Source of the DNA: Botryococcus braunii
Lineage: Eukaryota; Chlorophyta; Trebouxiophyceae
DNA length: 64,000 nucleotides
Assembly: GCA_002005505.1 (NCBI GenBank)
Contig: KV908509.1
Location: 17,501 to 81,500 of the forward strand
Direction of reading: 5' to 3'
The position numbers and the translations under genes are program-made. Numbering within the stretch: position 1 is the stretch's first letter; each line of letters begins with the position of its first letter. The notes beneath the pieces are model-generated. The model searched no databases. It saw nothing but the letters and a program-made list of their open reading frames with translations, and was not told the DNA's origin. Of the stretch, positions 973 through 58,095 are shown one piece after another.

Positions 973-1666
973 TGTGAAAGGTTATGGGCAATCGGCTTTC
1001 CCTGTACAAAGCAGACAGGTCGTCAATAGACGAAGTTACTCCAGCTACAGTCCGTACGACTGTCTGCTGAGTGCCACACACAACTGTCGGACAAGACTAG
1101 CATCTGGTGATGCCCAGCATCTTTCACAACCAGTTCCGTTACATCATTATCTTGTACACAAGCACCGATCAAGCAATCACTAGATAAGGCTCTAGACGGC
1201 TACGTTCAAGTACATGCCTATACTCCCTGAAGTCACTGTCCCTTATCTGTTTGAGTGACTACAGGGTACACTAAGCTTGTTCACTCTCACAATAGCAACA
1301 ATGATACAACACACACTGCCGCACCGTACCTGTACAAAGCAGACAGGTCGTCAATAGACGAAGTTACTCCAGCTACAGTCCGTACGACTGTCTGCTGAGT
1401 GCCACACACAACTGTCGGACAAGACTAGCATCTGGTGATGCCCAGCATCTTTCACAACCAGTTGGTATTCACTCCGGTGGGGCAGCCTTAAGAGTTCATC
1501 CGACAAACGTGTGATCTAGATAGGATTGTACCTTATGTTCGAAAACGTCCAGAATCTGCCGTGTCTCAAGGTACCTTATGTTCTCAATGGACCCATATCC
1601 TAATAGTGCACACATGAAGATCACTTAAAGCACAAGGCATTCAATAATAATGTTCAGAACTCAACA
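973..1666 (-). repeat. 3' LTR of A1
   Basis: 694 bp, matching 7286-7979. In sense it starts TGTTGAG and ends TTTCACA. It carries two perfect 134-bp direct repeats whose starts are 328 bp apart. The purine-rich tract GGCAAGGGGAAG lies directly upstream in sense (plus 1667-1678). Confidence 0.95.
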
Positions 1667-1686
1667 CTTCCCCTTGCCTGCATGCT

Positions 1687-7285: not shown

Positions 7286-7979
7286 TGTGAAAGGTTATGG
7301 GCAATCGGCTTTCCCTGTACAAAGCAGACAGGTCGTCAATAGACGAAGTTACTCCAGCTACAGTCCGTACGACTGTCTGCTGAGTGCCACACACAACTGT
7401 CGGACAAGACTAGCATCTGGTGATGCCCAGCATCTTTCACAACCAGTTCCGTTACATCATTATCTTGTACACAAGCACCGATCAAGCAATCACTAGATAA
7501 GGCTCTAGACGGCTACGTTCAAGTACATGCCTATACTCCCTGAAGTCACTGTCCCTTATCTGTTTGAGTGACTACAGGGTACACTAAGCTTGTTCACTCT
7601 CACAATAGCAACAATGATACAACACACACTGCCGCACCGTACCTGTACAAAGCAGACAGGTCGTCAATAGACGAAGTTACTCCAGCTACAGTCCGTACGA
7701 CTGTCTGCTGAGTGCCACACACAACTGTCGGACAAGACTAGCATCTGGTGATGCCCAGCATCTTTCACAACCAGTTGGTATTCACTCCGGTGGGGCAGCC
7801 TTAAGAGTTCATCCGACAAACGTGTGATCTAGATAGGATTGTACCTTATGTTCGAAAACGTCCAGAATCTGCCGTGTCTCAAGGTACCTTATGTTCTCAA
7901 TGGACCCATATCCTAATAGTGCACACATGAAGATCACTTAAAGCACAAGGCATTCAATAATAATGTTCAGAACTCAACA
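7286..7979 (-). repeat. 5' LTR of A1
   Basis: 694 bp, same sequence and internal 134-bp duplication as the other A1 LTR. The right edge is bounded by target duplication CCAGG (7980-7984). Confidence 0.95.
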
Positions 7980-7984
7980 CCAGG

Positions 7985-8746: not shown

Positions 8747-8848
8747 GCTAGCTCGGCTGACGTTAGATAGGAGCACCTCAGCAAAACCTATCTCATTCGG
8801 AGATTTAGAGAAATGGGCCTCGCAATGTGATGCTGATTTGTTGATAGC
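7985..8848 (+). pseudogene. Middle piece of the old gag-like ORF
   Basis: Continues the frame of 659-972 after A1 is removed. The frame is kept for the whole piece, with only two in-frame stops: TAG at 8181-8183 and TAG at 8577-8579. The part from 8220 resembles a retrotransposon Gag: a helical, charged region followed by Ala-Leu-Arg-Gly-Lys-Tyr-Gln-Gln and Ser-Tyr-Leu-Ala-His-Ile. After the second stop the same frame passes through an in-frame (CA)n tract coding alternating His-Thr, then ends at target site ATAGC (8844-8848), where D inserted. It continues at 33408. Family not identified. Confidence 0.55.
8657..8745 (+). repeat. (AC)n microsatellite, about 44 units
   Basis: Uninterrupted AC dinucleotide tract of 89 bases inside the old gag-like ORF, read there as alternating His and Thr. 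It probably expanded after the ORF lost function. Confidence 0.95.
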
Positions 8849-9519
8849 TGTTGTGTATTAGTTGGAGGATGCCGTAACTGTAAGCGGTACGTATGCCGTA
8901 GGAGAATCACTTTCTGTGAACACCACCAAGTAATCTCAATGTCTATATAGACCAGTGCTCGCACTGCCGTCTATATCTGCCGACTGCTCTCCGATCAGGA
9001 CACCCTTGGCCCTTCAGCAGTCCCAGGAGTTTAATGGCTACTCCCAACCAATCGCTATAACCAGTGTGCAACTCGTCACACACAAATAGCCTTACTGTTC
9101 GCACAACAGTAACATTCAAGCAATGCAGCTCCTGTATTGAAATGAATGTGACAGCAGTATATCAAGCAGTCCTTCAATACAGAGCAAACACTATTCAGCT
9201 TGGAGCTCGAAGCCCAGATGCATTCCACACCCCATCGACTGTTACAAATGGTTTACGTATGTTTACCTGTGAACACCACCAAGTAATCTCAATGTCTATA
9301 TAGACCAGTGCTCGCACTGCCGTCTATATCTGCCTGCACCCGAGCGTTACGATTTACTTGTGGGTTCATCAGTGTCCATAAAATATATCTAAACCACATA
9401 AAACACACACGCAACCTATCCACATATGTGTACGTACCGACTGCTCTCCGATCAGGACACCCTTGGCCCTTCAGCAGTCCCAGGAGTTTAATGGCTACTC
9501 CCAACCAATCTGCACAATA

Positions 9520-10008
9520 TGAAACAAAGGGAGACGTGTATGCAAGTTTAATAATAAGAGATACTAGGGTTTAAGGAAGGGGTGACACCGCGAGACAGTA
9601 AACGTGACGCCGATTCCTCTTACAATACGCAGCTCCTCCTCACGCAGGCGATTCCGAGTCTCCAATAAACAATATGGCCAACGCCAATACAATATAATAT
9701 GCAACAGATATATCCAGGCCCCAAAGATAAGTGTGTCTCTCGAAGTGTGAGTCCCACTTGTGGTGAACCCGGCTACATCGCCCTTCTATGTGATGCTCTC
9801 GCGAGCACCACGAGAAGGATGACGAGAGGGCATCCTTTTGGACATTTCATGAACATCCTATATTGTGAAGCTTCTCGTAGTACGACGTGCGTGAAGACAC
9901 ATGCGCACACATGCAGGCGTGCACGTAATTCGAAAGACCTGCACATAATTCGAAAGGCGAGCCGCATGAGGTACGCAGACGCGGCACCGCACGCGTCACC
10001 TCACTACA
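9520..10008 (-). repeat. 3' LTR of G1
   Basis: 489 bp; in sense starts TGTAGTGAGG and ends CTTTGTTTCA. Matches 15990-16478 except for one base. Confidence 0.95.
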
Positions 10009-10365
10009 TACTCCCCCCCCTATTCCTGTGCGTCCCCGCGCAGAAGGCAGAGCGCAACAAAACAACAAAGACCTTCCAACATGCGGAGACTCAGAACACT
10101 ACCTACGGGCAACCCGCCTCCCGTGTTGCCAGACCCCAGCCGATCGCTGCGTATCGGGGTCCCCACCATATAGAAATAAGAATAAGTATCATTCATGACA
10201 AACATGACAAAAGACGAAACGGAGGAAACAGCTAAGTCCACGTAGAGCCAAAAGTCCAGAAGTTCATAAGTCGAGAAGTCCACAAGTCCATAAGGCAAAG
10301 TTCAAGTGAGGTTCAAACCAAGTTCGAGTCCAAAGTTCCAGAGTCCAAAGTTCCGTGTCCAGTGG
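10009..10365 (-). other. G1 3' module: GGACTT repeats, two hairpins, polypurine tract
   Basis: In sense: degenerate GGACTT-type repeats (plus 10240-10365); hairpin HP1 (plus 10132-10161; arms GACCCCGAT and ATCGG-GGGGTC); hairpin HP2 (plus 10026-10043; CTGCGCG, loop GGGA, CGCACAG with one mismatch); then AATAGGGGGGGAG at the LTR. The same order recurs in G2, in the gag-only element, and in part in E/F. Confidence 0.7.
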
Positions 10366-10531
10366 CAATGAAGTGAAGCGGCCATGTCGAGCCTAATGTG
10401 CACAATGATCTATCCAGGTAAGGGACCCATGGTCCACCCTACCGGGTAAGGCAGCCTTACCCTAGCCTATCCACAGTCCATATGGCCATACAGAGAGACC
10501 CCTCCAAGGAGGGCCAACCGGTCGACGGGGC

Positions 10532-14698: not shown

Positions 14699-14709
14699 GG
14701 CTTCAGAAT

Positions 14710-15924
14710 TTACTTTTGAGGATTATGCCCCGGCCCTTTTCCCTTCCAATGTTCTCCCCGGCCACCACGGCCCTTCCACTGCCCACCTCGAGCTTGATTA
14801 GAGGGAAAAGGAGGAGGTGGGGGCAATTGACTGTCGCGCCTGCTCTTCCTTTGCAAGTAGTCCCGCTTGGCCTGACATTGCCATTGCTCGTGACCAAAGT
14901 TTTTGCAGAAGTAACACTGGCGCTCGGAGGGGACGCTAGTCCGGGAATCTAACTTCCCACCAACGCTGTGGCCGACGGCTCCAAGCACAGGCCCCTGGGT
15001 GAATCCCGGAAAGTGTGCCGGCGTGCTTATGGGAGTCCTCTTCACAGCTTTGAGAACCTTCCTTCCTTCCTGTCCCCTCAGCATCCCCCCTGACTTTAAG
15101 TTACTTTCATATTGCACCACATAAGTGCACAATACGTCGAGGTCTGAGAATCTAACACCAGTTTGTGGGTTTATCGTGCAAGCAACTCTAATATGAGCAT
15201 TCAAGCCTTTGAGAAACATGTATATTTTATCATTTTCGCATATCTCATACTCAGTTTCAACGTCACTCAAGAGCGTTATGAACCTTTCGATATATTTTTC
15301 AACACTTTCATGGCCTTGATAGACATGATCAAGCTTTTGGCGTGCGGCCATAACAAGGTCGGTTGAGTCATAGCGGTTCCCCATAAAAGTCTTGAACTCC
15401 TCCCAAGTTGCTTCCATTTGATCCCCTTCCCGTTCCTTCCTTTTTAAGTGAGTTCCCCACACCTTTGTAGGTCGCTCCTCCATGCACTGGAGTGCGACTG
15501 CCACCCACTTGTCACGTGCCACATTCGAGATGTCAGCATAAGATTCTACTTTGCTAGCAAAGAACTGGAAACTCCCCCGTTTGCCCGTGAACATTGCGGG
15601 TGTAGGCACACGCACTACGTGATTTGAGGATGGCGTCCGCTGGGAAGCTCGTTGACCCTCCAAGGCCTCGATCCTTTTGAGTAGCTTAGCAATCAAAATT
15701 TGGGTTCTGTCTTTCTTCAAGGGTTTCTTCATTGGTGCAAGCTTGGTTTTCCGTTTGGGTGTGGGTTTAGGCGGTGGAGCTGGTTCCGTTTCAAACTCCT
15801 CTTGCATGAGATCGTCCACTTCGACACCCTCCTTTTCAAGCCCTTCCAACAATTCCTTTTCCAACAAAGGGATACCAGCGTACTTGCTTCCTTTCCTGAC
15901 GGACGCCATACTCGCAAGGGACAA
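14710..15924 (-). CDS. G1 Gag
   Basis: 404 residues from the first ATG about 65 nt after the 5' LTR. An acidic and Lys/Pro-rich N-terminus precedes a Ty3-type Gag core (VPTPAMFTGKRGSFQFFASK ... TWEEFKTFMGNRYDSTD ... ESVEKYIERF), then a CCHC knuckle (CYFCKNFGHEQWQC) and a Gly/Arg/Lys-rich tail (RGGQWKGRGGRG) likely to bind RNA. No break. Ends TAA just before pol. G2 has the same protein without a usable start. Confidence 0.93.
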   Translation of the reverse strand: MSLASMASVRKGSKYAGIPLLEKELLEGLEKEGVEVDDLMQEEFETEPAPPPKPTPKRKTKLAPMKKPLKKDRTQILIAKLLKRIEALEGQRASQRTPSSNHVVRVPTPAMFTGKRGSFQFFASKVESYADISNVARDKWVAVALQCMEERPTKVWGTHLKRKEREGDQMEATWEEFKTFMGNRYDSTDLVMAARQKLDHVYQGHESVEKYIERFITLLSDVETEYEICENDKIYMFLKGLNAHIRVACTINPQTGVRFSDLDVLCTYVVQYESNLKSGGMLRGQEGRKVLKAVKRTPISTPAHFPGFTQGPVLGAVGHSVGGKLDSRTSVPSERQCYFCKNFGHEQWQCQAKRDYLQRKSRRDSQLPPPPPFPSNQARGGQWKGRGGRGEHWKGKGPGHNPQK

Positions 15925-15975
15925 TCCGATGGCAACCTTCCTTACGTCTCCCTTCGAACCGAGGCTCTAACCGCC

Positions 15976-15987
15976 TCGCCGATACCA
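15976..15987 (-). other. G1 primer-binding site
   Basis: Sense TGGTATCGGCGA, two bases after the LTR end. It fits a tRNA 3' end beginning with the universal TGG complement of CCA. The tRNA could not be assigned. G2 and the gag-only element share the site. Confidence 0.7.
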
Positions 15988-15989
15988 AA

Positions 15990-16478
15990 TGAAACAAAGG
16001 GAGACGTGTATGCAAGTTTAATAATAAGAGATACTAGGGTTTAAGGAAGGGGTGACACCGCGAGACAGTAAACGTGACGCCGATTCCTCTTACAATACGC
16101 AGCTCCTCCTCACGCAGGCGATTCCGAGTCTCCAATAAACAATATGGCCAACGCTAATACAATATAATATGCAACAGATATATCCAGGCCCCAAAGATAA
16201 GTGTGTCTCTCGAAGTGTGAGTCCCACTTGTGGTGAACCCGGCTACATCGCCCTTCTATGTGATGCTCTCGCGAGCACCACGAGAAGGATGACGAGAGGG
16301 CATCCTTTTGGACATTTCATGAACATCCTATATTGTGAAGCTTCTCGTAGTACGACGTGCGTGAAGACACATGCGCACACATGCAGGCGTGCACGTAATT
16401 CGAAAGACCTGCACATAATTCGAAAGGCGAGCCGCATGAGGTACGCAGACGCGGCACCGCACGCGTCACCTCACTACA
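15990..16478 (-). repeat. 5' LTR of G1
   Basis: 489 bp, one visible difference from 9520-10008. Bounded on the right by CAATA. Confidence 0.95.
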
Positions 16479-17315
16479 CAATATGTGGATCATCAGAGAT
16501 CAAAACAAAACAGTTACTTAACCAGCAGGAGCATGCTTGTTATACGTATCTGTACTCACCGCTATAACCAGTGTGCAACTCGTCACACACAAATAGCCTT
16601 ACTGTTCGCACAACAGTAACATACAAGCAATGCAGCTCCTGCAACACAAGACACATGTAATGTTTCATAATCAGCAGAAACATCAGTACGCATGTGCTTA
16701 ACGCCTACGATCGCAGCCAGACGACTGCGACCGTTACCCTTGCCAGCGATCGCAAGCTTACCTGTATTGAAATGAATGTGACAGCAGTATATCAAGCAGT
16801 CCTTCAATACAGAGCAAACACTATTCAGCTTGGAGCTCGAAGCCCAGATGCATTCCACACCCCATCGACTGCCAAGCTTGCTCGCGATCTGGCGTTTATA
16901 TGCCTTCTGATCGTAACCGGCGGTAACGGTACAGTTCCTTTCGAGAGGCTGCACCGTACTGCATGGTCACATAAACAACCCTGACTTGGCCCTATGCCAA
17001 CGTGTAGCTCTATAGCTGCACCAGGGATCTCATACTTATACACGCGTACACACTCAATGGAGTCTTTACCTTGTGACCTTACCGTCACTAGTACAAGACC
17101 TGTACTGCATGGAGGTCACTTATATGATCAACCTAACTGAACATAATACAATACCCTTTGACACGCAATCAGGCGCATCTTCTTACTTGTACTCCACACG
17201 TGGAGAAATTCAAGTTATACAATGTTTCCTAAAACCACTTGATAAACTGATAGCGCCCGTGTATCTAGTACGTTTGCCATCACGTATCTATACGTACCAA
17301 TCAGTTTATACAACA

Positions 17316-17459
17316 ATCTTCCCCTTTTAGAAAACATGTATAATGTCGTTCATTAATGTTGAGTTCAATTGTTCCCATTAACGCACTACTCTTCCGAGCC
17401 AAACTTAGAATCTTTGAAGCCCTAAAGCCCTAAAGCCCTAGAACTTCAACACTCTAGGC
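17316..17459 (-). other. D 3' untranslated region and polypurine tract
   Basis: In sense, from the pol stop (17460-17462) to the 3' LTR. It contains three tandem TAGGGCTT units (plus 17418-17441), similar to the plant telomere repeat, and ends with AAAAGGGGAAG next to the LTR, a good polypurine tract. Confidence 0.7.
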
Positions 17460-20400
17460 TTAACCCATTCTCAAGCTGTCACGATGCTTGAGAAATGCTG
17501 GACTGGCCAACGGCTTTGTAAAAATGTCAGCCACATTTTCCTCTGTGTTGACGTACACCGGCGTGATCTGCCCCCATGCTACCTTTTCCCTCGCTTGATG
17601 ATAGCACACGCTAATATGCTTGGTGTACTTGGACAATACATGGTTTTGCAGATTTGCAATACAGCCCATGTTGTCCATTCTTAATTCTACACCAGACACA
17701 GACTGACCGAGCTCCTCCAACAAGCTCCCAAGCCATACTCCTTCCTTTATTGCATGGCTCGCCGCAATAAACTCCGCCTCGACAGTGGAAGTAGCAACTG
17801 ACTGTTGCTTCTTACTTCCCCACGACACTGCTCCCCCATTCAGCATGAACACGAAACCAGTTGTTGATTTTCGTGTATCAACATCTCCCGCAAAATCTGA
17901 ATCTACAAAGCCAGCCAGACTTTGCTTCCCCTTTCCCCCATAAACCAAACCCATCTCCTTGGTGCCCAACAGGTATCTCACAATCCTCAACCCTGCACGC
18001 ATGTGTGCAGTGGTTGGGGCAGCACGGTAACGTGCCAGCAGGCTTACTGCCTGTGAAATATCAGGACGAGTGGTATTGGCCAGGTACTGCAGTGACCCTA
18101 CGAGTTCCAGGTACCGGTGTCCGTCCGGTAGTGGAGACCCTGAACCCGCACTCTCATCCCCCACCTTCCCTTGTGGAAGCTCTGTCTGCACAAAGCTTTT
18201 ACACATGGGTGTGCTCACTCCCTTGTCACTCTCACTCACTCCAAATGACTCAGCAAGATCCTTGATCTTCTGAGCGTTGGAAATCACTATCACTCCCCCA
18301 TCGCGATCACGCCTGACTTCACTTCCGAGGAAATTCTTCACTTCCCCCAAGTCGTGAACCTTAAATCTTGCTTTCAACTCACCCTTGATTTCTGACACTC
18401 TCTCACCACTCTTGCAGATGATCAGCAAATCATCCACATAGGTAACAATGAACGCCCGGTCTTCACCCCTTCCGGAGTCCAAGAATAAGGCCGGGTCGCT
18501 CCTACATGCCTTGAAACCCATCTCTCCAAGATCCTTGGAGAGACTTTTGTGCCATGCCCGAGGTGCCTGCTTGAGTCCATACAAAGCCTTCCTCAAGCGA
18601 AACACCTCCCTTTTATCACCATTAGAGAAACCAGGAGGCTGCGTTACATACACCTCCTCCTCTAATTCTCCATTGAGAAATGCCGTCTTGATATCCACTT
18701 GGTGGATTTCAAGATTTTCTGTTGCTGCAATATTCAGCAACACTCTCCTACATGCATGGGTGCTGACAGGTGCAAAGGTTTGATCACAATCTATACCTTC
18801 TACCTGCCTGCAACCTTGCGCTACGAGTCTTGCCTTAAACCGGATGACATCGCCATATTCATCCGTCTTTAAGGCAAACACCCAAATCAGAGGAATCACT
18901 TTTGCTCCCTCTGGCCTCCTCACCACCTCATACGTGTCACATTCTTCAATAGCATCTAGCTCCTCTTGCATGGCTTGCTTCCAGTACTCCTTTTGAGGAC
19001 TGGCAAGCGCTTCTCCAATGTGTTTTGGAATGGACAACTCTGATGCTTTCAATTTTGCCTCCTCAACTACTACTGCATGGGCTTTTACTTGCGTGTGATA
19101 TGCCCCAGGAACATACTTATCTGGCGGGCCAACTCTCTCTCTCAATTCGTAACGCCCACCACCTCTTCCCCTCTCTGCATTCTCCTCATTATCATGCTGC
19201 TCTTCGTCTCTCTCACTTGCCTGCCCTTGACTTTCACCATCACCATTTCCCTCATCAGTCACTTCCCCGGCTGGAAGTTCTGCAGGAAGCTGCTGCAGCA
19301 CCTCCCGTGCACGCCTCATGACTTCATGCATATCGTCCGTTCGTAATTCCGGGTTTATCGCAATTTCGCGCGGGGCATCAATTGCCTCTTCCCCGGAAAC
19401 CTCAGGTACCTCCTCTTCATCATGAAACAACTCTTCAACCCTCATTTCAGGTTGTAGTGTGGGTGGAGTTACAACCGGATAGCCCAACTCATCTTCAATA
19501 AATCTCACATCCTTACTCACCATTACCTTGCCTTGCACCAGGATCCGATACGCCTTGGATCCTGTTTCATATCCCACAAACATGCCCGCAACTGAGCGCG
19601 GACCAAGTGCTGACAGCTGCCTATCAGGCAGCTTCACATAAGCCAAACAACCCCAAACCTTCAGGTGAGCAACTGAGGGTTTCTTGCCATAGAATGCCTC
19701 ATACGGACAAGACTCCTTTCCACTGACGGCACTCACATTCAGCAGTCGTACCACAGTGTGTGCTGCCTCAGCCCATAGTTCAGGCCCTGCCTCTGCTGTG
19801 AAGAGGAGAGCCCTCACTCGTTCCTTGATTACCCTGTTTACACGCTCTACCTTGCCATTTTGTTGAGGCGTGTACGGTGCAGAGGTCTGATGCGCGATCC
19901 CCTTTCTGGCAAAGAAATCTGCCAGCTCGCGATTTACAAATTCAGTACCTCTGTCCGTCCTAACAGTGCCAACTTTACATTTAGTTGACACCTCCCAATT
20001 CAAGAGGACCTCTTGAACGAGTGCTCCTACCTCAGTCTTTGAACTGAACGTCCTGATTTGGATTCTATGCGAGAAGTCGTCCAAAAGGACCAGCATATAC
20101 TTCTCTCCATTCAGCCCAGCCACAGGCAGCTCTCCCACTACGTCCATATGGACTAGCTGAAGTCTCTCAGTAGACTCAGCCGCAGTGGAGGAAGGCGTGG
20201 GAGTCCTAGTCTGCTTCCCCCGTATACAACCGTCACAGTGAGTCACAACTCTTTCTACTTCACCCACACTTCCTTTAACCTCATTCACAATCTGCTCTCT
20301 CAACATTCTTGACATGCATACAACTCCCGGATGTCCCAACCTTTTGTGCCACAACTCTGTCTCTTCTCGTGTAGTTACTAAAAGTGCAGCCGCCCCTCCC

Positions 20401-21283
20401 CATGCACAGAGCCCACTTTTGTGTGACAGGAAGTATAAGCTCCCTTTCGGTTCAATGTCACACATGAACTCATTTGCTTGGCACATGACAGCCACATATT
20501 CCCCTTTTTCATTTACAGAGAATGTGCAGCCATCTTTGACAGCAGCTGACACGGACAAGAGGTTATCAGTCGCTGTCGGGACATACTCAACATGTGTAAG
20601 CAACACACTTCCCCCACCTTGCACAGATAGACACACATTTCCCTGTGCCTTTCGCAATCCTTGACCATCACTCGCTGCCAGTCCCAGTGGTTTGGCTTCA
20701 TCATAAACAATGACATTGGACATTAAATGCAAATCATTGCATGTATGGTTAGTAGCACCCGTGTCAACAATCCACTGCCCTTCCCCAGTGTTTTGTAACT
20801 TTGAGGATGCCATCCCTGCCCTTGGATTTACCTCTTCTCCAGTGGGTGGGTTACCTCGGTTAGGAGGGTGCACAAGTCTTGGGCAGTTCACTTTAATGTG
20901 CCCCCTCTCACCACACTCATAGCATGTCCGATTATCGTTCCTGACAGCCGGACCCGGCTTGCGGACAACAGCCGCCCTTGGAGCCCTTGGTTGCTGATCA
21001 TTGAAACCAATGGTTTCTGCAACCACCCTTACAGCAGCCAAGGTTTGGTTAATATTGCATGTAGCAGTGGAAGAAGATAAACTTGGTTTATGAGCATCAA
21101 ACTGGTACGGAAGGCACTTCAGGATTGACTTCTTGAGTTTTGTTTGCGTTACAAGCATGTTGTTATCGTTCAGTCTTTTTGCCAGCAGCTCTTTCCTAGC
21201 CACATATTCTTCCAACGTGCCCTCATTCCCCATTATTTCACTGTCCAACAGCTCCAGCCATTGGTCATTGATTTCCAAGTTTG
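17460..21283 (-). CDS. D gag-pol, main part (Gag C-terminus to RNase H)
   Basis: About 1,275 residues continuing gag-pol from 30635-31103 after A2 is removed with one CTCCC copy; the frame is kept across the join (Gln-Gly-Gly then Ala-Asn-Leu-Glu). In order: Gag helices (WLELLDSEIMG, LKKSILKCLP), CCHC knuckle (CYECGERGHIKVNC), protease (WIVDTGATNH), integrase HHCC (LWHKRLGHPG ... CDGCIRGK) and core (HMDVVGE, RTDRGTEF, PQQNGKVERVNR), spacer, RT (IHQVDIKTAFLNG, YVDDLLII), RNase H (GFVDSDFAGD ... VEAEFIAASHAIKE). No stop or shift, so D was intact until A2 inserted. Confidence 0.93.
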
Positions 21284-21288
21284 CTCCC

Positions 21289-21982
21289 TGTTGAGTTCTG
21301 AACATTATTATTGAATGCCTTGTGCTTTAAGTGATCTTCATGTGTGCACTATTAGGATATGGGTCCATTGAGAACATAAGGTACCTTGAGACACGGCAGA
21401 TTCTGGACGTTTTCGAACATAAGGTACAATCCTATCTAGATCACACGTTTGTCGGATGAACTCTTAAGGCTGCCCCACCGGAGTGAATACCAACTGGTTG
21501 TGAAAGATGCTGGGCATCACCAGATGCTAGTCTTGTCCGACAGTTGTGTGTGGCACTCAGCAGACAGTCGTACGGACTGTAGCTGGAGTAACTTCGTCTA
21601 TTGACGACCTGTCTGCTTTGTACAGGTACGGTGCGGCAGTGTGTGTTGTATCATTGTTGCTATTGTGAGAGTGAACAAGCTTAGTGTACCCTGTAGTCAC
21701 TCAAACAGATAAGGGACAGTGACTTCAGGGAGTATAGGCATGTACTTGAACGTAGCCGTCTAGAGCCTTATCTAGTGATTGCTTGATCGGTGCTTGTGTA
21801 CAAGATAATGATGTAACGGAACTGGTTGTGAAAGATGCTGGGCATCACCAGATGCTAGTCTTGTCCGACAGTTGTGTGTGGCACTCAGCAGACAGTCGTA
21901 CGGACTGTAGCTGGAGTAACTTCGTCTATTGACGACCTGTCTGCTTTGTACAGGGAAAGCCGATTGCCCATAACCTTTCACA
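21289..21982 (+). repeat. 5' LTR of A2 with 134-bp internal duplication
   Basis: 694 bp. Two identical 134-bp blocks at 21492-21625 and 21820-21953. A TATA-like TCTTAAG (21462-21468) is 30 bp upstream of the first block. The first block is followed by CAG|GTACGG and the second ends in a pyrimidine-rich stretch and TACAG|GG, so 21626-21953 has the form of a 328-bp GT-AG intron. Half-sites ATAAGGTAC lie at 21376-21387 and 21419-21430. Confidence 0.92.
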
Positions 21983-29940: not shown

Positions 29941-30634
29941 TGTTGAGTTCTGAACATTATTATTGAATGCCTTGTGCTTTAAGTGATCTTCATGTGTGCA
30001 CTATTAGGATATGGGTCCATTGAGAACATAAGGTACCTTGAGACACGGCAGATTCTGGACGTTTTCGAACATAAGGTACAATCCTATCTAGATCACACGT
30101 TTGTCGGATGAACTCTTAAGGCTGCCCCACCGGAGTGAATACCAACTGGTTGTGAAAGATGCTGGGCATCACCAGATGCTAGTCTTGTCCGACAGTTGTG
30201 TGTGGCACTCAGCAGACAGTCGTACGGACTGTAGCTGGAGTAACTTCGTCTATTGACGACCTGTCTGCTTTGTACAGGTACGGTGCGGCAGTGTGTGTTG
30301 TATCATTGTTGCTATTGTGAGAGTGAACAAGCTTAGTGTACCCTGTAGTCACTCAAACAGATAAGGGACAGTGACTTCAGGGAGTATAGGCATGTACTTG
30401 AACGTAGCCGTCTAGAGCCTTATCTAGTGATTGCTTGATCGGTGCTTGTGTACAAGATAATGATGTAACGGAACTGGTTGTGAAAGATGCTGGGCATCAC
30501 CAGATGCTAGTCTTGTCCGACAGTTGTGTGTGGCACTCAGCAGACAGTCGTACGGACTGTAGCTGGAGTAACTTCGTCTATTGACGACCTGTCTGCTTTG
30601 TACAGGGAAAGCCGATTGCCCATAACCTTTCACA
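29941..30634 (+). repeat. 3' LTR of A2
   Basis: 694 bp, seen as identical to 21289-21982; polypurine tract GGCAAGGGGAAG at 29929-29940. Confidence 0.95.
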
Positions 30635-31103
30635 CTCCCCCTTGGAACTGGCTCATAATCCATTTAAATGCCACTGCTGCAGATTCAGCAAATGCCACCT
30701 TCTGAGCCCACACTTCTGGAACCTTTTGCAGCAACAAATGCAGTGCCACTGCATCCCCTTTAGTCCCCGGCATGGACGTTTTTAGGCATTCCAGCACATT
30801 CCTGCTCACGGCACAATGGAACACATTTTGTTTCCAGATGTCCAACGAAAAACCCAGTCTATCTAAGGAGGTGGTGACCTGCAGACTGGAGTTCACTGGA
30901 CTCGTCGGATCTTCCCGGCCAGATGTACTGGCCGGTTCAGATCCCCTAGCCACTGCCGTTCCAACTCTTGAATCTCTTCCCATGTCAGTCGCTGTAACCC
31001 CATCACTGGTTCCAGCCACCCCCGTGAGATCCCCTCGTAGGTCTGGAAGTAATCCGGATGGAGCCGCAACGGATTGAGTCCCAGCTCCTCCACCTCCCTC
31101 CAT
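30635..31103 (-). CDS. D gag-pol, N-terminal Gag part
   Basis: Begins at ATG 31103, with an in-frame stop four codons further upstream, so this ATG is a real boundary. Gly/Ser/Thr-rich N-terminus, then a Gag helix region (LGFSLDIWKQNVFHCAVS; ALHLLLQKVPEVWAQKV). A2 cuts it at CTCCC; the frame resumes at 21283. The full gag-pol is about 1,430 residues. Its first 210 bp overlap the end of ORF0 in another frame (ORF0 frame to gag frame is a -1 step), so reinitiation, leaky scanning or -1 frameshifting must supply Gag. Confidence 0.88.
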
Positions 31104-31873
31104 GATGGCAGTCGGTCAAATACTGCCTTACTCTGCCCTTGTTGTAAACGGAACTGGAACTGTACCAGCTCGATATACACGTGGTATTCTCTGTACCACC
31201 TGAGTACCTGTCCTGTACCCTCTCTTCCCTCAACAATAGCTCTGTCGAGAAAGAACGAAGGAAAACCTTCCCGTGGCCCGTCTGCAGTTAGCTTAAATAA
31301 CTCCTGCAAACGGTTCCACACTTTCAGAAAATAGTGCACCTCCCAGTCTTCTTTTGGAAGGCTCTTCCCGTATAGCTCTGCTACCTCATGCACCAGGCTA
31401 TCAGCAAGGGGATCACTGAACACAATCAATTCCTCCCACTTGACCAAAATGGGCTCCTCTCGTGGCTGTGTCAGACCAGCCAAGAATGCCGTTGATATGA
31501 TTCCTTCACACAGAGCGGACCCTTCTTCACTTTCACAAGTCTTAACAAAGATGTAGTTTGCTCGTTCAACAGGATCAGGAAGATTGTTCAGCACAATGTC
31601 TTGGTGATGCACAATTGGCCTTTGAAATTGACCCTTTGGAACACCAGGCCTCTCAATATGAATATACAGACCCGGGTCTCCAAAATAGTCAGGAACTTTA
31701 AAGTGAGTCCTGACAAAAGGAATGGGATACTCTGAGTATTCCGGTCTTCTTGGATGCTGTTGACGTACTGCAGGTCGCAGTCCTCTTCCTCTCGTTGTTG
31801 GGAAAGGTCTCGGCGTCCGTTGCTCTTCAGGTTCCGGTGTATCTTCGATCACAATGACTTCCTCCTCTGGCAT
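30893..31873 (-). CDS. D ORF0: unrecognised 326-residue protein before gag
   Basis: Starts 26 nt after the 5' LTR and ends inside gag. Acidic N-terminus (MPEEEVIVIEDTPEPEEQ), a Pro/Arg-rich stretch (RGRGLRPAVRQQHPRRP), then a well-ordered region with many aromatic and charged residues (YFGDPGLYIHIERPGVP; WEVHYFLKVWNRLQELF; VLRWYREYHVYIELVQFQF) and a C-terminal helix (LTWEEIQELERQWLGD). No zinc knuckle, protease or RT motif and no membrane segment. Not standard in Copia. The length of uninterrupted frame, its position and the compositional order argue for a real protein; function unknown. Confidence 0.75.
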   Translation of the reverse strand: MPEEEVIVIEDTPEPEEQRTPRPFPTTRGRGLRPAVRQQHPRRPEYSEYPIPFVRTHFKVPDYFGDPGLYIHIERPGVPKGQFQRPIVHHQDIVLNNLPDPVERANYIFVKTCESEEGSALCEGIISTAFLAGLTQPREEPILVKWEELIVFSDPLADSLVHEVAELYGKSLPKEDWEVHYFLKVWNRLQELFKLTADGPREGFPSFFLDRAIVEGREGTGQVLRWYREYHVYIELVQFQFRLQQGQSKAVFDRLPSWREVEELGLNPLRLHPDYFQTYEGISRGWLEPVMGLQRLTWEEIQELERQWLGDLNRPVHLAGKIRRVQ

Positions 31874-31880
31874 GCATCAA

Positions 31881-31897
31881 GTTGTGGGCCCAGCACC
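31881..31897 (-). other. Probable primer-binding site of D
   Basis: Sense GGTGCTGGGCCCACAAC, two bases after the LTR. It resembles the A and C half-tRNA site (GGTTATGGGCCCACCAC) at 13 of 17 positions, so D may prime from a variant or a different tRNA fragment. Confidence 0.45.
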
Positions 31898-31964
31898 TTT
31901 GTTGTGTATTAGTTGGAGGATGCCGTAACTGTAAGCGGTACGTATGCCGTAGGAGAATCACTTT

Positions 31965-32292
31965 CTGTGAACACCACCAAGTAATCTCAATGTCCATATA
32001 GACCAGTGCTCGCACTGCCGTCTATATCTGCCGACTGCTCTCCGATCAGGACACCCTTGGCCCTTCAGCAGTCCCAGGAGTTTAATGGCTACTCCCAACC
32101 AATCGCTATAACCAGTGTGCAACTCGTCACACACAAATAGCCTTACTGTTCGCACAACAGTAACATACAAGCAATGCAGCTCATGTATTGAAATGAATGT
32201 GACAGCAGTATATCAAGCAGTCCTTCAATACAGAGCAAACACTATTCAGCTTGGAGCTCGAAGCCCAGATGCATTCCACACCCCATCGACTG
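31965..32292 (-). other. Intron-less copy of the D leader exons
   Basis: 328 bp. Junctions at plus 32182/32183, 32103/32104 and 32031/32032 match the three introns to the base. Block sequences are almost identical to the unspliced set at 32318-32958. Confidence 0.9.
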
Positions 32293-32384
32293 TTACAAAT
32301 GGTTTACGTATATTTACCTGTGAACCCCACCAAGTAATCTCAATGTCTATATAGACCAGTGCTCGCACTGCCGTCTATATCTGC

Positions 32385-32488
32385 CTGCACCCGAGCGTTA
32401 CGATTTACTTGTGGGTTCATCAGTGTCCATAAAATATATCTAAACCACATAAAACACACACGCAACCTATCCACATATGTGTACGTAC
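32385..32488 (-). other. D leader intron 3 (104 bp)
   Basis: Sense GTACGTACAC at the 5' end and TCGGGTGCAG at the 3' end. Exactly absent from the spliced copy. Confidence 0.88.
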
Positions 32489-32560
32489 CGACTGCTCTCC
32501 GATCAGGACACCCTTGGCCCTTCAGCAGTCCCAGGAGTTTAATGGCTACTCCCAACCAAT

Positions 32561-32646
32561 CTGCACAATATGTGGATCATCAGAGATCAAAACAAAACAG
32601 TTACTTAACCAGCAGGAGCATGCTTGTTATACGTATCTGTACTCAC
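32561..32646 (-). other. D leader intron 2 (86 bp)
   Basis: Sense GTGAGTACAG at the 5' end and TATTGTGCAG at the 3' end. Exactly absent from the spliced copy. G1 inserted in this intron in the other LTR. Confidence 0.9.
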
Positions 32647-32725
32647 CGCTATAACCAGTGTGCAACTCGTCACACACAAATAGCCTTACTGTTCGCACAA
32701 CAGTAACATACAAGCAATGCAGCTC

Positions 32726-32848
32726 CTGCAACACAAGACACATGTAATGTTTCATAATCAGCAGAAACATCAGTATGCATGTGCTTAACGCCTACGATCG
32801 CAGCCACACGACTGCGACCGTTACCCTTGCCAGCGATCGCAAGCTTAC
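32726..32848 (-). other. D leader intron 1 (123 bp)
   Basis: Sense GTAAGCTTGC at the 5' end and TTGTGTTGCAG at the 3' end. Exactly absent from the spliced copy. Confidence 0.9.
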
Positions 32849-33407
32849 CTGTATTGAAATGAATGTGACAGCAGTATATCAAGCAGTCCTTCAATACAGA
32901 GCAAACACTATTCAGCTTGGAGCTCGAAGCCCAGATGCATTCCACACCCCATCGACTGCCAAGCTTGCTCGCGATCTGGCGTTTCTATGCCTTCTGATCG
33001 TAACCGGCGGTAACGGTACAGTTCCTTTCGAGAGGCTGTACCGTACTGCATGGTCACATAAACAACCCTGACTTGGCCCTATGCCAACGTGTAGCTCTAT
33101 AGCTGCACCAGGGATCTCATACTTATACACGCGTACACACTCAATGGAGTCTTTACCTTGTGACCTTACCGTCACTAGTACAAGACCTGTACTGCATGGA
33201 GGTCACTTATATGATCAACCTAACTGAACATAATACAATACCCTTTGACACGCAATCAGGCGCATCTTCTTACTTGTACTCCACACGTGGAGAAATTCAA
33301 GTTATACAATGTTTCCTAAAACCACTTGATAAACTGATAGCGCCCGTGTATCTAGTACGTTTGCCATCACGTATCTATACGTACCAATCAGTTTATACAA
33401 CAATAGC

Positions 33408-33792: not shown

Positions 33793-34409
33793 ATATGGCA
33801 GCCAATGAGGCAAAGGGATCTCTTCTTGCAGTACTGGAGGCCATGCCAGGCACCTTGCATGATGTAGCAGCATTACTACTGCTATATGAATCCGTGCCAG
33901 AAGAGTGGCAGGGTGAATTGTCTGAGATGCCTTCTGCATATGATGCTTATGAGTACATATGCAGGAAATTCATTGGTGGCTACAATTTTCAAGCAAACAT
34001 GGACTGGTTGCAAGAGATGAGTCAGGGCATGAGGCATGATGAAACCATTTCTCAGTATGTGAACCGTCTGCTCAACCTCAAGGCCTGCCTTCACAGAAAC
34101 AATCGTCACCTGATGGATGGTTTTGTAGCTACCCAAATCGTGCAGGGCCTCCCTGATGCAGCCAAGGAGCCTGGCAGCCTGTCCTCAGCCGTTGCACACC
34201 CACTCAACAAGCTCGCAGAACTCATGCGCACCACTCCTGCAGCCCTGGGCTTTGACGAGACAGCTCCCCGCCAGCCCAGAGTCCTGGCCATTGCCCCAGG
34301 TACCAGTGGAGCCAGCAACCCACCAGCCGCAAGTGCAGCCAACACACAGCAGACCACTGGACCCCCTGAGCCCAAGGGAGTATGCAATTACTGCAATAAA
34401 AAGGGACAC
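33793..34409 (+). pseudogene. C2 Gag, 5'-truncated
   Basis: Copia Gag related to C1, beginning abruptly at the equivalent of C1 residue about 70 (AANEAKGSLLAVLEAMPGT). It includes LLLYESVPEEWQGEL, FIGGYNFQANMDWLQEMSQGMR and the first half of the zinc knuckle (CNYCNKKGH), where C1 inserted (GACAC). C2 has lost its 5' LTR, leader and Gag N-terminus, by deletion or recombination, not by a clean insertion. Confidence 0.85.
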
Positions 34410-35137
34410 TGTTATAATAGTGAAAGAACAATTAGTGACTTTCCCTCAGAAGAGTAATAGTGGTCAGGCTTCTCTAAAGCAATCACTGTGAACAATCTCA
34501 GAGGTTGAGTAATGGATGGCAGAACTCTAGAGTTCTGCCATAATTGATCTAGACTGATTCCACTTAGGAGAAAGAGAGTAATGCAATTTGACACGTTTTT
34601 GCTAGAAAGGATATAAGCAGCCGGCATGAAGGGCTCGGCACTTGTTTGGGACTGAAAGAGCACTACGGGTGCTTATCTCTGATCAGTTGCCTCAAGTGTC
34701 AACACATAGTCGGGCTCTGCTTGCTCTCCTACACACAGCAAGAGACCCGACCGAGCTTAACACCCTTCGTGCCGGGACATACAGGTAAAGTGCTGCATCT
34801 TAGTGTGATTTGTATGAACAATTGATTAGGAAGAGGTCTAGATAAGAGTATTAGAATGTTGCTAATGCTTGGCTCATCGAACAATGGTAATGCGGACTAT
34901 CTGTCGATGCGTAGAAGAGGTAGTTTGAATTCCTTGGCGTTGAGAGAGAGCAAGAAGCAATGTAATGACTTGTTTGGGACTGAAAGAGCACTCCGGGTGC
35001 TTATCTCTGATCAGTTGCCTCAAGTGTCAACACATAGTCGGGCTCTGCTTGCTCTCCTACACACAGCAAGAGACCCGACCGAGCTTAACACCCTTCGTGC
35101 CGGGACATACAGGGAACATTACGCCCAGAATTGTACA
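34410..35137 (+). repeat. 5' LTR of C1 with 145-bp internal duplication
   Basis: 728 bp. Blocks at 34640-34784 and 34968-35112, starts 328 bp apart. TATAAG (34612-34617) is 28 bp upstream of the first block. The first block is followed by CAG|GTAAAG, the second ends ATACAG|GGAA, so 34785-35112 has intron form. 25 nt separate the second block from the LTR end. Confidence 0.92.
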
Positions 35138-35160
35138 GGTTATGGGCCCACCAACTCTTG
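35138..35160 (+). other. C1 primer-binding site (initiator tRNA-Met half)
   Basis: GGTTATGGGCCCACCA directly after the LTR: 16 bases complementary to the plant initiator tRNA-Met anticodon arm, with patchy matches beyond. Confidence 0.78.
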
Positions 35161-40987: not shown

Positions 40988-41005
40988 GGAAAAGTCAAGG
41001 GGAAG

Positions 41006-41733
41006 TGTTATAATAGTGAAAGAACAATTAGTGACTTTCCCTCAGAAGAGTAATAGTGGTCAGGCTTCTCTAAAGCAATCACTGTGAACAATCTCAGAGG
41101 TTGAGTAATGGATGGCAGAACTCTAGAGTTCTGCCATAATTGATCTAGACTGATTCCACTTAGGAGAAAGAGAGTAATGCAATTTGACACGTTTTTGCTA
41201 GAAAGGATATAAGCAGCCGGCATGAAGGGCTCGGCACTTGTTTGGGACTGAAAGAGCACTCCGGGTGCTTATCTCTGATCAGTTGCCTCAAGTGTCAACA
41301 CATAGTCGGGCTCTGCTTGCTCTCCTACACACAGCAAGAGACCCGACCGAGCTTAACACCCTTCGTGCCGGGACATACAGGTAAAGTGCTGCATCTTAGT
41401 GTGATTTGTATGAACAATTGATTAGGAAGAGGTCTAGATAAGAGTATTAGAATGTTGCTAATGCTTGGCTCATCGAACAATGGTAATGCGGACTATCTGT
41501 CGATGCGTAGAAGAGGTAGTTTGAATTCCTTGGCGTTGAGAGAGAGCAAGAAGCAATGTAATGACTTGTTTGGGACTGAAAGAGCACTCCGGGTGCTTAT
41601 CTCTGATCAGTTGCCTCAAGTGTCAACACATAGTCGGGCTCTGCTTGCTCTCCTACACACAGCAAGAAACCCGACCGAGCTTAACACCCTTCGTGCCGGG
41701 ACATACAGGGAACATTACGCCCAGAATTGTACA
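41006..41733 (+). repeat. 3' LTR of C1
   Basis: 728 bp, matching 34410-35137 with about two differences. Same internal duplication. Confidence 0.94.
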
Positions 41734-44075
41734 GACACTACTGGAGGGATTGCAAAAAAAGGCGCAGGGACGAGGAGACACAGAGGAACGTGGTGGCAGC
41801 AGTCCAACAGCTGCAAGGCATGTGGCCCCAGGGCCAGCCTCCAGTGGGAGGCCCCCATCCGCCAGTGGCCCAGCTGGCACACCACGGTGCTGAAGCCTTC
41901 CCTGCATGGTTTCAACCTCTTGCTCCTCCCTCACCTCCTCCAGAAGGGAACTAAGCTGGAGACCTCTGCTCCCTACACTCCACAGCAGAACGGGGTGGCA
42001 GAACGAGCCAACCGCACCCTGAAGGAAAGAACCCGGACCATCCTGGCTTTTGCAGCTGCCAGCCCCACCCTCTGGAAAGAAGCACTGGAGACAGCTTGCA
42101 CATGGGCCCCAGTACAGGCAAAGACCTTACCCCTCTCGAATTATTCTGGGGGTACAAGCCTGATGTCTCACTTTTGCGCACGTGGGGCTGCTTTGCACTG
42201 TGCATATTCCAGATGTGCAGAGGCCAGTCTTTGCACCTAAGACTGTGCCTGGGATTTTCACCGGGTATTCCGCCTCCTCTAAAGCTTACCGCATCTACAT
42301 GGGAGGGGGTGTATGGAGGGAAAGCAGAGATGTCATATTCGTGGAGCACCTCAGAGGGGCCTCTCGTGTTGGTATAAGTGTGACTCCAGCCCAGTCTAAG
42401 GAGTTCCTGTACCCGAGTCCCCCTGAGAATAGCAATTCCCGACAGTTCCCTGAGACAGTTCCCATTTCCATTGAGAACGACAGTGAGGCAGAAACCCAGG
42501 ATTCAGACAGTGAGTCCCCACATTCCCACGTTGCTCACGAGAATGCTGACTCGGACAGTCCAGGACCCTCTGGGAAGGCTGAGCCCGAGCCTGACTCTCA
42601 GAGGAAGCCTGCTCCTGTGGAGATCCAAAGGACCATCGAAGCAGCTCAGGACCTGGCTCGCGGCACACACTCGGACCCCGGTCTGCAGCAACACATGATG
42701 CGAGCTCAGGAGATGCTCAGGCGAGCTGCCATGGCGAACTCTTGTCTGCAATCTGATGGGCTGAACAGAGCTTAGAGATATGAGCAACGTACCTTTGCGA
42801 GAGAACTCATGCTGTTACAGGAGGTGGGAGAGAGCAGAGGAGGAGTGGGGCTGACTGAAAGTGACACACTGTCACTGGGACCAGAGGAAGTGCAGGTAGA
42901 TGGGTGTCAGTCTAAGAGCCCTGACTTGAATGTAAGTGCTGTGAGGGGGCAGCTACAATTATGGCTGCAAATGGTCCCAGGGAGGTGAGTTGCATGGGTG
43001 GGTCCTGCCCAGTGAATGAGCAGCATGTAAGTGATGAGACATGTGAGGGAACGTCTGGCTCTTCCCACCAGTGGTGTGGACTGGTAAGGGAAAGTGGTGA
43101 CAGCCACAAACCTGAGAAGAGACACTCAACCCTCTCAGGAACAGCCAGAACTGCTTATGAGAGCACTACTGGGTCTGCATCTCAGTACTGGTGTGAGAGT
43201 CGAGAAGAGGAGGTGAATCCGTTGCACAGACATTGTGGGATATCACCAAATTACAAGTGGAGTCTAAGAGGTACCTGTGCATGGGAGAAGGATGTCAAGG
43301 ATGAGAGGTCACAACCTACTGTGACAAAATGTGGAAGTCAGGGACACACCAGTCACGAAAGTGAGGGGAAGCTCAGTGCTGATCAGAGCCTACCTCTTCC
43401 TGCCTGTGAGGGCCCTCTGGAGCCAGAGCTTCAGAGGGTACGTAAGTGTGTGGATGAGGAGGTGAACCGGAAGCTCAGACAATGTGAGAATCCTCCTGAT
43501 TATGGAAGCTTCCCGGGAGGTACCTGTGTTTGGGAGGATGATGTGAGTGTGCGAGGCAGTAAATTGAGCAGTGCAAAATGTGAGTCAAAAAGGGGGGGAA
43601 GAAAATTCTGATCCCACTGAGAGAAGTGCTAGCTGTAGTGCGGCGAGTGTCAGTGGAAGAGTAGTGGGTTCTGATGGTGCAGCCAACAAATCTCCAAAGG
43701 GTAAGGGAGATGAGGGGAAGCACACAGGTGTTAGATTTGGCAAAATCCATGTTCCTTCTAACCTAAGGGAAGCTCAGATGTCCCCTCAGTGGGAATATTG
43801 GAAGGCTGCTATGCAAGAAGAGCAGAGTTCCTAAGATACTCATGTAGTCATAAAACATGTTCCAAGACCTCATGGGCACAAGGTGATACCAATTCACTGG
43901 ATCTTCAGTGAAGATGGATGCACATGGTAATGTTGTGAGATTTAAGGCAAGACAGGTTGCACAAGGATGTAGACAAATCCCTGGGGTAGATGTCATGGAG
44001 GTGTTTGCTCCAACTAGCAGCTATGGAGCTAGAAGAGCCTTACTGGCTGTTGCTGCAAGGGAAGGTTTTGAGATT
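41734..44075 (+). pseudogene. C2 Gag end, integrase remnant, spacer and RT start
   Basis: Continues C2 after C1. Second half of the zinc knuckle (HYWRDC), Gln/Pro-rich linker, then a direct jump at AGAAGGGAAC from PPEG to GTKLETSAPYTPQQNG: about 1 kb (protease and the integrase zinc finger and first core half) is deleted. Further frame changes lie near 42100 and 42775-42960, with stops in the spacer and near 43834. RT begins near 43908 (FKARQVAQGCRQIPG) and is cut by A3 at AGATT (44071-44075). Clearly dead. Confidence 0.85.
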
Positions 44076-44775
44076 TGTAAAAGGTTCTGGGCAGTGGCGT
44101 ATCCTGTAAGCAAGCACACAGGTCGTAAGTTCGTGCCTCTCCGGCTACAGTCCTCGACGACTGTCTGCTCTTTAGACACATGCAACTGTATGAACAAGAC
44201 TGGCATCCTTATGTGCCCAGTATCTTTCTAAACCAGTTCCGTTACACGTTGATCTGTCAATGAGCATCTACACACGGATAAGCTCCCGACGGCTGAAAGC
44301 AAGTACCTTCCTATACTCAATCAAGACTCCTTCCCTTTGCTGTTTGGGAGACTTGATTGTACACTAAGTTGGTTCACTTACAAACAAGCAATCAGACATG
44401 AACACATTACCAATACACACCCTGCGTCACCGCACCTGTAAGCAAGCAGACATGTCGTAAGTTCGTGCCTCTCCAGCTACAGTCCTTGATGACTGTTTGC
44501 TCTTTAGACACATGCAACTGCATGAACAAGACTGGCATCCTTATGTGCCTCTTATCTTTCCAAACCAGTTGCTTGACTATGCGGTGATCGCAGCTTTAAT
44601 AGTCCTTTCACACTAACGCGTAATCTAGATCAGATTGTACCTTATGTTCGAAATCGTCCACAATCTAACGTGTCTTAAGGTACCTTATGTTCTCAATGGA
44701 CCCTTATCCTAATAGTGCACATCTGAAGATCATTTAAAGCACAAGGCATTCAATAATAATGTTCAGAACTCAACA
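44076..44775 (-). repeat. 3' LTR of A3 (700 bp, two repeat units)
   Basis: Related to but diverged from the A1/A2 LTR. Contains both internal repeat units, TATA-like TATTAAA about 31 bp upstream of the first, and CAG|GTGCGG after it (sense). Polypurine tract follows at plus 44776-44789. Confidence 0.9.
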
Positions 44776-53704: not shown

Positions 53705-54405
53705 TGTTGAGTTCTGAACATTATTATTGAATGCCTTGTGCTTTAAGTGATCTTCAGGTGTGCACTATTAGGATATGGGTCCATTGAAAACGTAAGGTAC
53801 CTTGAGACACGTTAGGTTGTGGACGCTTTCGAACATAAGGTACAATCTGATCTAGATTACGCGTTAGTGTGAAAGGACTATTAAAGCTGCAATCACCGCA
53901 CAGTCGAGCAACTGGTTTGGAAAGATACTGGGCACATAAGGATGCCAGTCTTGTTCACTCAGTTGCATGTGTCTAAAGAGCAGACAGTCGTCAAGGACTG
54001 TAGCTGGAGAGGCACGAACTTACGACCTGTCTGCTTGCTTACAGGTGCGGTGACGCAGGGTGTGTATTAGTAATGTGTTCATGTTTGATTGCTTGTTTGT
54101 AAGTGAACCATCTTATTGTACAATCAAGCCTCCCAAACAGCTAAGGAACGGAGTCTTGATTGAGTATAGGAAGGTACTTGCTTTCAGCCGTCAGGAGCTT
54201 ATCCGTGTGTAGATGCTCATTGACAGATCAACGTGTAATGGAACTGGTTTGGAAAGATACTGGGCACATAAGGATGCCAGTCTTGTTCACTCAGTTGCAT
54301 GTGTCTAAAGAGCAGACAGTCGTCAAGGACTGTAGCTGGAGAGGAACGAACTTACGACTTATCTGCTTGCTTACAGGGGAAGCCGATTGCCCATAACCTT
54401 TTACA
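53705..54405 (+). repeat. 5' LTR of A4 with 135-bp internal duplication
   Basis: 701 bp. Blocks at 53910-54044 and 54242-54376 (332 bp apart). TATTAAA at 53879 is 31 bp upstream of the first block. First block followed by CAG|GTGCGG, second ends TTACAG|GGGA. PBS GGTTATGGGCCCACGCC begins at 54406. Confidence 0.9.
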
Positions 54406-56348: not shown

Positions 56349-56797
56349 TGTAGTGAGATGCCGCGTCAGCGCGACGCGTCTCACGTAGGATGTGCGCGTA
56401 GTTCATGTTTCTTCGTGCCCTTTGGGATACGAGTAGATCTCGTTGTCCTTGTGTGTAGGAAAATGACTGTAATATCCTAGTGGGTCTCCTCTCGTCATCC
56501 ATATCGTTATGCTCGCGAGAGCATCTCGTAGAGGGACGACGTAGCCGGATCCGCGCATAGGTGGACTAGGAACTCGGGTGGTTATCATTGTCTTTGGGTT
56601 TTCTGTTACAAGGGAGGCATCTAGAAATATCTTTATTGGTCATAATATATTGTTCTTTGGAGACTCGGACGACCTGCGTGAGGAGGGCTGCGAACTTGTA
56701 ACGGATTGGAACTTCGATTTCTACCTTCGGTGTCACCCTTGCCTGATACCCTTGCTTAGCTTGTTATAAATCTTAGTTCACGTCTCACTTCGTTAAA
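56349..56797 (+). repeat. 5' LTR of G2
   Basis: 449 bp, TGTAGTGAGATG to CTTCGTTAAA; TSD CAGGG to its left; same length as the 3' LTR with few differences. Confidence 0.92.
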
Positions 56798-58084: not shown

Positions 58085-58095
58085 ATTCTGAAGCC

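Follow-up and report, generated by a model that had tools for sequence, protein, structure and literature searches.

Copia retrotransposons of Botryococcus braunii carry their leader twice per LTR, unspliced and spliced, and probably renew the spliced copy

The Ty1 retrotransposon has no introns. In HIV-2 and SIV, the transcript of the 5' long terminal repeat (LTR) contains an intron, located in the R-U5 leader, and to our knowledge no spliced copy of that leader is stored in the LTR. The major splice donor of HIV-1 is reported to lie downstream of the primer-binding site (PBS) (PMC1868081), so that splicing there leaves the strong-stop DNA unchanged, and the number of Gs at the RNA 5' end has been described as affecting strand transfer (PMC4668388). 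For plant Sire elements, one source gives an R region of about 10 bp (PMC3601003), and the available text of a snow-alga genome paper reports no annotated Copia elements (PMC11228838).

Here, a stretch of 64,000 nucleotides from Botryococcus braunii (contig KV908509.1, positions 17,501 to 81,500; hereafter the window) was analysed. The D element occupies the minus strand between 33402 and 8849 and is broken by other elements. It is flanked by ATAGC at 33403-33407 and 8844-8848, which we read as the target duplication. Its 1281-aa ORF contains the Pfam domains rve (380-480) and RVT_2 (790-1035), so that the integrase lies upstream of the reverse transcriptase, and its paired LTRs have TG...CA ends and a target-site duplication. 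By its pol order and ends, D is a Copia retrotransposon of the Ty1/copia group. No Pfam match was obtained for the 326-aa ORF at 30893-31873, nor any Rfam hit in the window at the gathering threshold. In what follows, copy u is the first, intron-bearing copy of the leader and copy s the joined, intron-free one. The left LTR carries the same parts as the right one, but is split by a Gypsy element:

30893..31873, minus strand: 326-aa ORF after the 5' LTR, in gag position
17460..21305, minus strand: D pol ORF, 1281 aa, integrase preceding RVT_2 (Copia order)
16474..17317, minus strand: D 3' LTR, U3-side part, separated from the other part by the Gypsy element at ~9522-16473
8849..9521, minus strand: D 3' LTR, U5-side part, containing copy s

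Gypsy elements are found at 9515-16478, inside the left D LTR, and at 56349-62525, with LTRs of ~494 and 449 bp, respectively; self-comparison of the window revealed no internal repeat of more than 80 bp in the LTRs of either.

The order of parts in the 1503-bp right LTR is U3, exons E1 to E4 with introns 1 to 3, 25 bp of intron 4, copy s and U5:

31900..33402, minus strand: D 5' LTR, TGTTG...CAACA, 1503 bp, target duplication ATAGC outside
32959..33402, minus strand: U3
32849..32958, minus strand: exon E1 of copy u, RNA start predicted at the A of AGTCG, 32957
32726..32848, minus strand: intron 1, GTAAGC...TTGCAG, 123 bp, missing from copy s
32647..32725, minus strand: exon E2 of copy u
32561..32646, minus strand: intron 2, GTGAGT...GTGCAG, 86 bp, missing from copy s
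32489..32560, minus strand: exon E3 of copy u
32385..32488, minus strand: intron 3, GTACGT...GTGCAG, 104 bp, missing from copy s
32318..32384, minus strand: exon E4 of copy u, ending TTCACAG
32293..32317, minus strand: first 25 bp of intron 4 (GTAAAT...), ending with the sole same-strand TGTAA of the LTR, 32293-32297
31965..32292, minus strand: copy s, E1-E2-E3-E4 joined, its end TTCACAG being the putative acceptor of intron 4
31900..31964, minus strand: U5, 65 bp, putative beginning of the next exon

The exon blocks measure 110, 79, 72 and 67 bp (328 bp in all). An earlier sequence-only reading of this LTR had described leader exons separated by three GT-AG introns, an intron-free copy at 31965-32292 and a 25-bp remnant of a fourth intron at 32293-32317, with the second copy on the U5-proximal side after the start of that intron. 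Reading the sequence bore out each of these points: copy s is 328 bp long and differs from the unspliced set by three mismatches, at leader positions 110, 298 and 320. The introns had been described as removed to the base; the joins in copy s are exact, save for a single base at the first.

The same reading placed TATAAA about 30 bp before the leader. The left LTR does have it (minus strand, 16895-16900), whereas CATAGAAA is found in the right LTR and at six of seven other loci, and TATAGAAA at the remaining one. TATA-like sequences about 30 bp upstream of u are TATAAG in family B, TATTAA in family C and TATAAA in the left D LTR, while family A has no clear TATA box and only CTTAAG. These sequences favour a transcription start at u. 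At the primer-site position, the sequence adjoining the LTR is GGTTATGGGCCCAC in A, B and C, a candidate primer site of the half-tRNA iMet type, and AAGGTGCTGGGCCCAC in D (window 31880-31899); D may prime from another tRNA part.

The two-copy plan had been described for D; it is also found in A, B and C, the other Copia families of the window. Their LTRs consist of U3, an exon of 134-145 bp ending in ACAG, a segment beginning with GT, TGTAA and a further 2-3 nt, a second copy of the exon that likewise ends in ACAG, and a U5 of 26-29 bp, and two leader copies were found in all eight LTRs compared:

973..1667, minus strand: family A LTR, arrangement as in the other A LTRs
7286..7980, minus strand: family A LTR, exon 7643-7776, intron part 7449-7642 (GTACGG...TGTAACGG), exon copy 7315-7448, U5
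21289..21982, plus strand: family A LTR, exon 21492-21625, copy 21820-21953
29941..30634, plus strand: family A LTR, arrangement as in the other A LTRs
34400..35138, plus strand: family B LTR, TATAAG, exon 34640-34784, intron part, exon copy 34968-35112, U5; extent by self-comparison, start undefined
40997..41734, plus strand: family B LTR, exon 41236-41380, copy 41564-41708
44076..44775, minus strand: family C LTR, copies more diverged, u/s 124/135
53705..54405, plus strand: family C LTR, exon 53910-54044, copy 54242-54376

In these LTRs the repeated exon has no internal introns. Within a single LTR, u and s agree at 134/134 positions in A, 132/135 in C and 144/145 in B, whereas the leader exons of A and C agree at 107 of 141 columns, about a quarter differing. 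Genome-wide, 1,548 matches to the junction between TGTAA and exon were found (1,405 for A/C and 143 for B), with patterns that require TGTAA; outside the window, the junction alone was compared, not the whole LTR.

To sample D-type LTRs, the genome to which the window belongs (176 Mb, 989 contigs) was searched at the DNA level, taking the best 40 of 226, 193 and 204 candidates together with a few regions chosen by place; the resulting counts are lower bounds, and the sample favours close relatives. Among the 46 LTR places classified, 36 have the full two-copy arrangement, 3 are intron-free and 7 are incomplete, including both halves of the window's left LTR, one LTR cut by another insertion and one that is masked. 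The LTR at C320 is N from inside intron 2 on. Under the standard U3-R-U5 logic an LTR has one leader copy, yet these 36 places and the eight A, B and C LTRs have two. The intron-free cases are both LTRs of the C48 element and C365:65k; the partner LTR of the C365 element (L078) was not found in the neighbouring stretch examined, and none of the 46 places combines an intron-free u with s. Introns 1 to 3 retain intact GT-AG sites in 32 of the 36 complete LTRs, both C735 LTRs included, with one site altered in two others and two that could not be parsed. The C735 subfamily differs by 12-22% depending on the segment, yet introns 1 to 3 are all present in it at unchanged positions. Allowing up to 3 mismatches, pattern searches of the genome matched 144 places for exon 1-intron 1, 141 for the spliced exon 1-exon 2 join and 128 for exon 4-intron 4.

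Several loci depart from the plan in other ways. L073 (C8, ~72.45k) was rejected as an LTR without s, given that an apparent family A/C LTR start sits directly at the expected start of s. An extra leader unit is present in L077 (C163:71900-73500) and L079 (C21:786750-787750), and the unit in L079 retains intron 3 only. An origin of these units as retained-intron products was rejected: the C21 place 6.75 kb away, taken as the partner LTR, lacks the unit, which makes exchange after insertion likelier. The rearranged LTRs at C163 and C21 thus suggest unequal exchange between u and s. At C735, three junctions (4734, 10402 and 16059) lie ~5.66 kb apart, a spacing that suggests a tandem array of elements with common LTRs.

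Whether s was inherited from a single event or follows the u of its own element was assessed after collapsing 39 LTRs by place into 27 elements, omitting the first three columns, which lie at the junction. On average, s differs from its own u at 3.56 positions and from a shuffled u at 8.70; for the 18 D elements only, the values are 1.78 and 2.87. None of 20,000 shuffles, which ignore relatedness, gave a difference as low as that observed. In five of the 27 elements, s and u differ at 8-19 positions, in C532 owing to a truncated E4. Among 23 elements (C735, C21, C413 and C163t excluded), there were no fixed differences between u and s and no s-only variants common to two elements. At three of five polymorphic sites s matches its own u, the two being in step in 22/23, 22/23 and 21/23 elements, while two u-only variants (columns 209 and 291), each in two elements, are missing from s. 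A tree of 24 of these elements, which omits C532, C591 and one C455 element, requires 15 changes of the u/s label, against a shuffled mean of 15.1 and the single change that one duplication would need; one of its 34 branches is well supported, and it joins C735 u with C735 s. The C735 s is 53 columns away from the D-type u and 20 from its own u. The absence of fixed differences, the tracking of u by s and the failure of u and s to separate on the tree indicate that s is renewed rather than descended from one old duplication. Given the two u-only variants and the five elements with 8-19 differences, this renewal appears to be frequent, but is not proven for each cycle.

One element is chimeric. 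In C630, U3 and u are of the D type, while s, U5 and the sequence after U5 are of the C697/C25 type, with the switch falling somewhere from the end of u to the first bases of s, as predicted if cDNA is transferred from one RNA to another. Two LTRs, L065 (C630) and L064 (C3:697k), are recombinant, with U3 of the D type and U5 of the C25 type. Compared with D, the C25-type loci (L023, L024 and L038) show 96-100% identity in the R region, 80-86% in distal U3 and 69% in U5.

The join between TGTAA and s varies among elements. The start CAGTCG, as originally described, holds for the window, but the start common to most copies is AGTCG, and the preceding C belongs to one of seven junction types. Among 92 D-type joins, these are CG (54), TG (14), CC (12), G (6), C (3), TC (2) and GG (1); CG, TG, G, C and CC recur in TTGTAA subfamilies, and CG occurs in the GTGTAA subfamily as well. 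The boundary between U3 and u is CTTGGCAG in 68 of 74 locus rows, some of them redundant, with three near-identical variants counted 65, 2 and 1 times, and CAGTCTCG in four further rows (L038, L071, L072 and L074), two rows being without U3. All 21 D-type LTR pairs 5.4-7.3 kb apart agree in their join type, where random pairing would give 9.2; two apparent A/C pairs 6.3-6.4 kb apart disagree (C6:782325/788698 and C11:889128/895446). The base before the first exon base of s is G in 75 of the 92 D-type joins, where u has C. By eye, it is also G in 94 of 100 listed family B places and in 83 of 100 listed A/C places (T in 11, C in 4, A in 2). In family B the join is nearly constant: TG accounts for 90 of the 100 places listed out of 143. 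We infer that the G before s is a copied cap.

The transfer point had been placed within the fourth intron. It is not an arbitrary spot there: in one LTR examined of each of A, B, C, D and C735, TGTAA lies 1-3 nt before s. On the strand of the element, these LTRs have a single TGTAA, except that of C, which has two; its other TGTAA, at position 394, is an extra candidate signal. The motif precedes s in all 64 D-type rows whose pattern did not demand it (rows from redundant loci), and none was found in the spliced leaders of A, B and C. The host genome gave 35 matches to the chlorophyll a/b-binding family, plus an Lhca3-like exon, which point to the green lineage. In chlorophytes, UGUAA is described as the main poly(A) signal, with a peak ~17 nt before the cleavage site (PMC1868727, PMC4025486). 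At that distance, cleavage would fall inside s, and both ends of the RNA would have the first 10-15 nt of the leader exon. With the join 1-3 nt after TGTAA, the transfer point probably marks the 3' end of the RNA.

We therefore propose, with a probability of about 0.75, that s is rewritten from u: strong-stop cDNA made on the spliced leader would jump to the RNA 3' end by means of a short terminal repeat. Transcription would start at copy u, and the leader of the 5' LTR would be spliced, losing introns 1 to 3 in D and a last intron in all four families. This last intron would extend from a donor at the end of u, across TGTAA and the old s, to an acceptor made by the end of s (...CAG|G), thereby joining the end of u to U5. 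Such splicing would strip TGTAA from the RNA 5' end and so keep the 5' LTR from acting as a terminator. In the 3' LTR, the RNA would be cleaved shortly after TGTAA, ~10-15 nt inside s. The strong-stop cDNA of the spliced leader, copied up to the cap, would then move to the 3' end via the short repeat. In the resulting LTR, U3 and u would derive from the RNA 3' end and be followed by TGTAA, by an s newly made as spliced cDNA of the u in the parent's 5' LTR, and by U5. Since the old s would be discarded as intron, LTR length would stay constant and the introns would be kept. If the cDNA were transferred to the u copy instead, the product would be an LTR lacking introns, like those of C48 and C365. 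Such LTRs could also arise by recombination between u and s, but both LTRs of C48 share the state.

Several points stand against this proposal, among them the two u-only variants, the five elements with 8-19 differences, the two discordant A/C pairs and the lack of a clear TATA box in family A. Introns 1 to 3 must be removed at the 5' end yet remain at the 3' end of the RNA, for which we have no explanation. Moreover, pairing of the spliced leader with the u close to the RNA 3' end is also conceivable; this would give intron-free LTRs, and only 3 of the 46 places are of that kind. A stronger version, in which splicing is obligatory for replication because it skips the 5' poly(A) signal and creates the terminal repeat, each LTR being rewritten every cycle as a DNA record of the cap site, the spliced leader and the 3' end, is put forward tentatively, at slightly under even odds.

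Renewal might also proceed without pairing through a short repeat, by an end-to-end jump or by a joined or branched RNA linking the cap end to the 3' end. The variation at the D join, where 0-1 nt is followed by G or C, is compatible with nucleotides added without a template or with a misread branch, and a lariat intermediate has been proposed for Ty1 (PMC1266399). We consider this route unlikely, given that the reported distance between UGUAA and the cleavage site (~-17, PMC1868727) predicts nucleotides of s at the RNA 3' end, making pairing sufficient, and that the family B join hardly varies. Still less probable is a single old insertion of spliced leader cDNA, inherited as part of U5, with the copies kept alike by DNA gene conversion. 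A fixed copy would, by reasoning, be stable under an ordinary cycle with unspliced RNA, and the rearranged LTRs at C163 and C21 resemble unequal exchange between u and s, so DNA exchange probably does occur. However, such an insertion does not account for joins that vary within ~2 nt, mostly end in a G absent from u and overlap in type across diverged subfamilies, and it leaves TGTAA at the join in all four families without explanation. The C630 chimera, broken near the junction, also argues against it, though ordinary recombination in that interval is possible too.

The sequence-only reading offered a mechanism in which, in an ancestor of family D, strong-stop DNA of the spliced leader would have moved once into an unspliced R, within a fourth intron. 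Its choice of a cap-ended cDNA of the spliced leader remains the best source for the second copy, and the anatomy of one LTR agrees with it. The single transfer, in turn, must be considered very improbable: the plan is common to four families, u and s lack fixed differences and do not separate on the tree, s carries its own u's polymorphisms at three of five sites and the joins differ between elements. Even less credence is due to a later insertion of intron-like segments, such as introner-like elements, into a tandem repeat. The lack of introns in the repeated exon of A, B and C speaks for it, but the segments would have to have spared s, in which every join is exact save for a single base at the first, and C735 has introns 1 to 3 at those sites too. 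Insertion into an originally intron-less repeat had been named beforehand as a possible refutation; nothing was found in its favour.

If correct, renewal of s from a spliced leader would make splicing a core step in the replication of LTR retrotransposons. It would also offer a solution to the old question of how the poly(A) signal, which has to act in the 3' LTR, goes unused in the identical 5' LTR. The process would be testable from DNA alone, since every LTR would preserve both the spliced leader and the point where the cap end meets the 3' end. No description of an LTR with a stored spliced leader was found in open-licence PubMed Central (titles and starts of abstracts, among the matches listed; subscription papers and preprints are outside that scope), and the two-copy LTR is new as far as the literature searched shows. 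The proposed step resembles first-strand transfer in HIV-1, where minus strong-stop cDNA moves to the RNA 3' end, and the intron in the R-U5 leader of HIV-2 and SIV resembles those predicted within the 5' LTR transcript of D. The lariat RNA proposed for Ty1 (PMC1266399) would likewise bring the RNA 5' end and the 3' region together. With Ty1/copia elements (Pseudoviridae), D shares an integrase placed before the reverse transcriptase, TG...CA LTRs, a 5-bp target duplication and the U3-R-U5 logic; unlike them, it carries the leader twice per LTR, unspliced and spliced, with an R that would be defined through splicing and a putative poly(A) signal in a leader intron.
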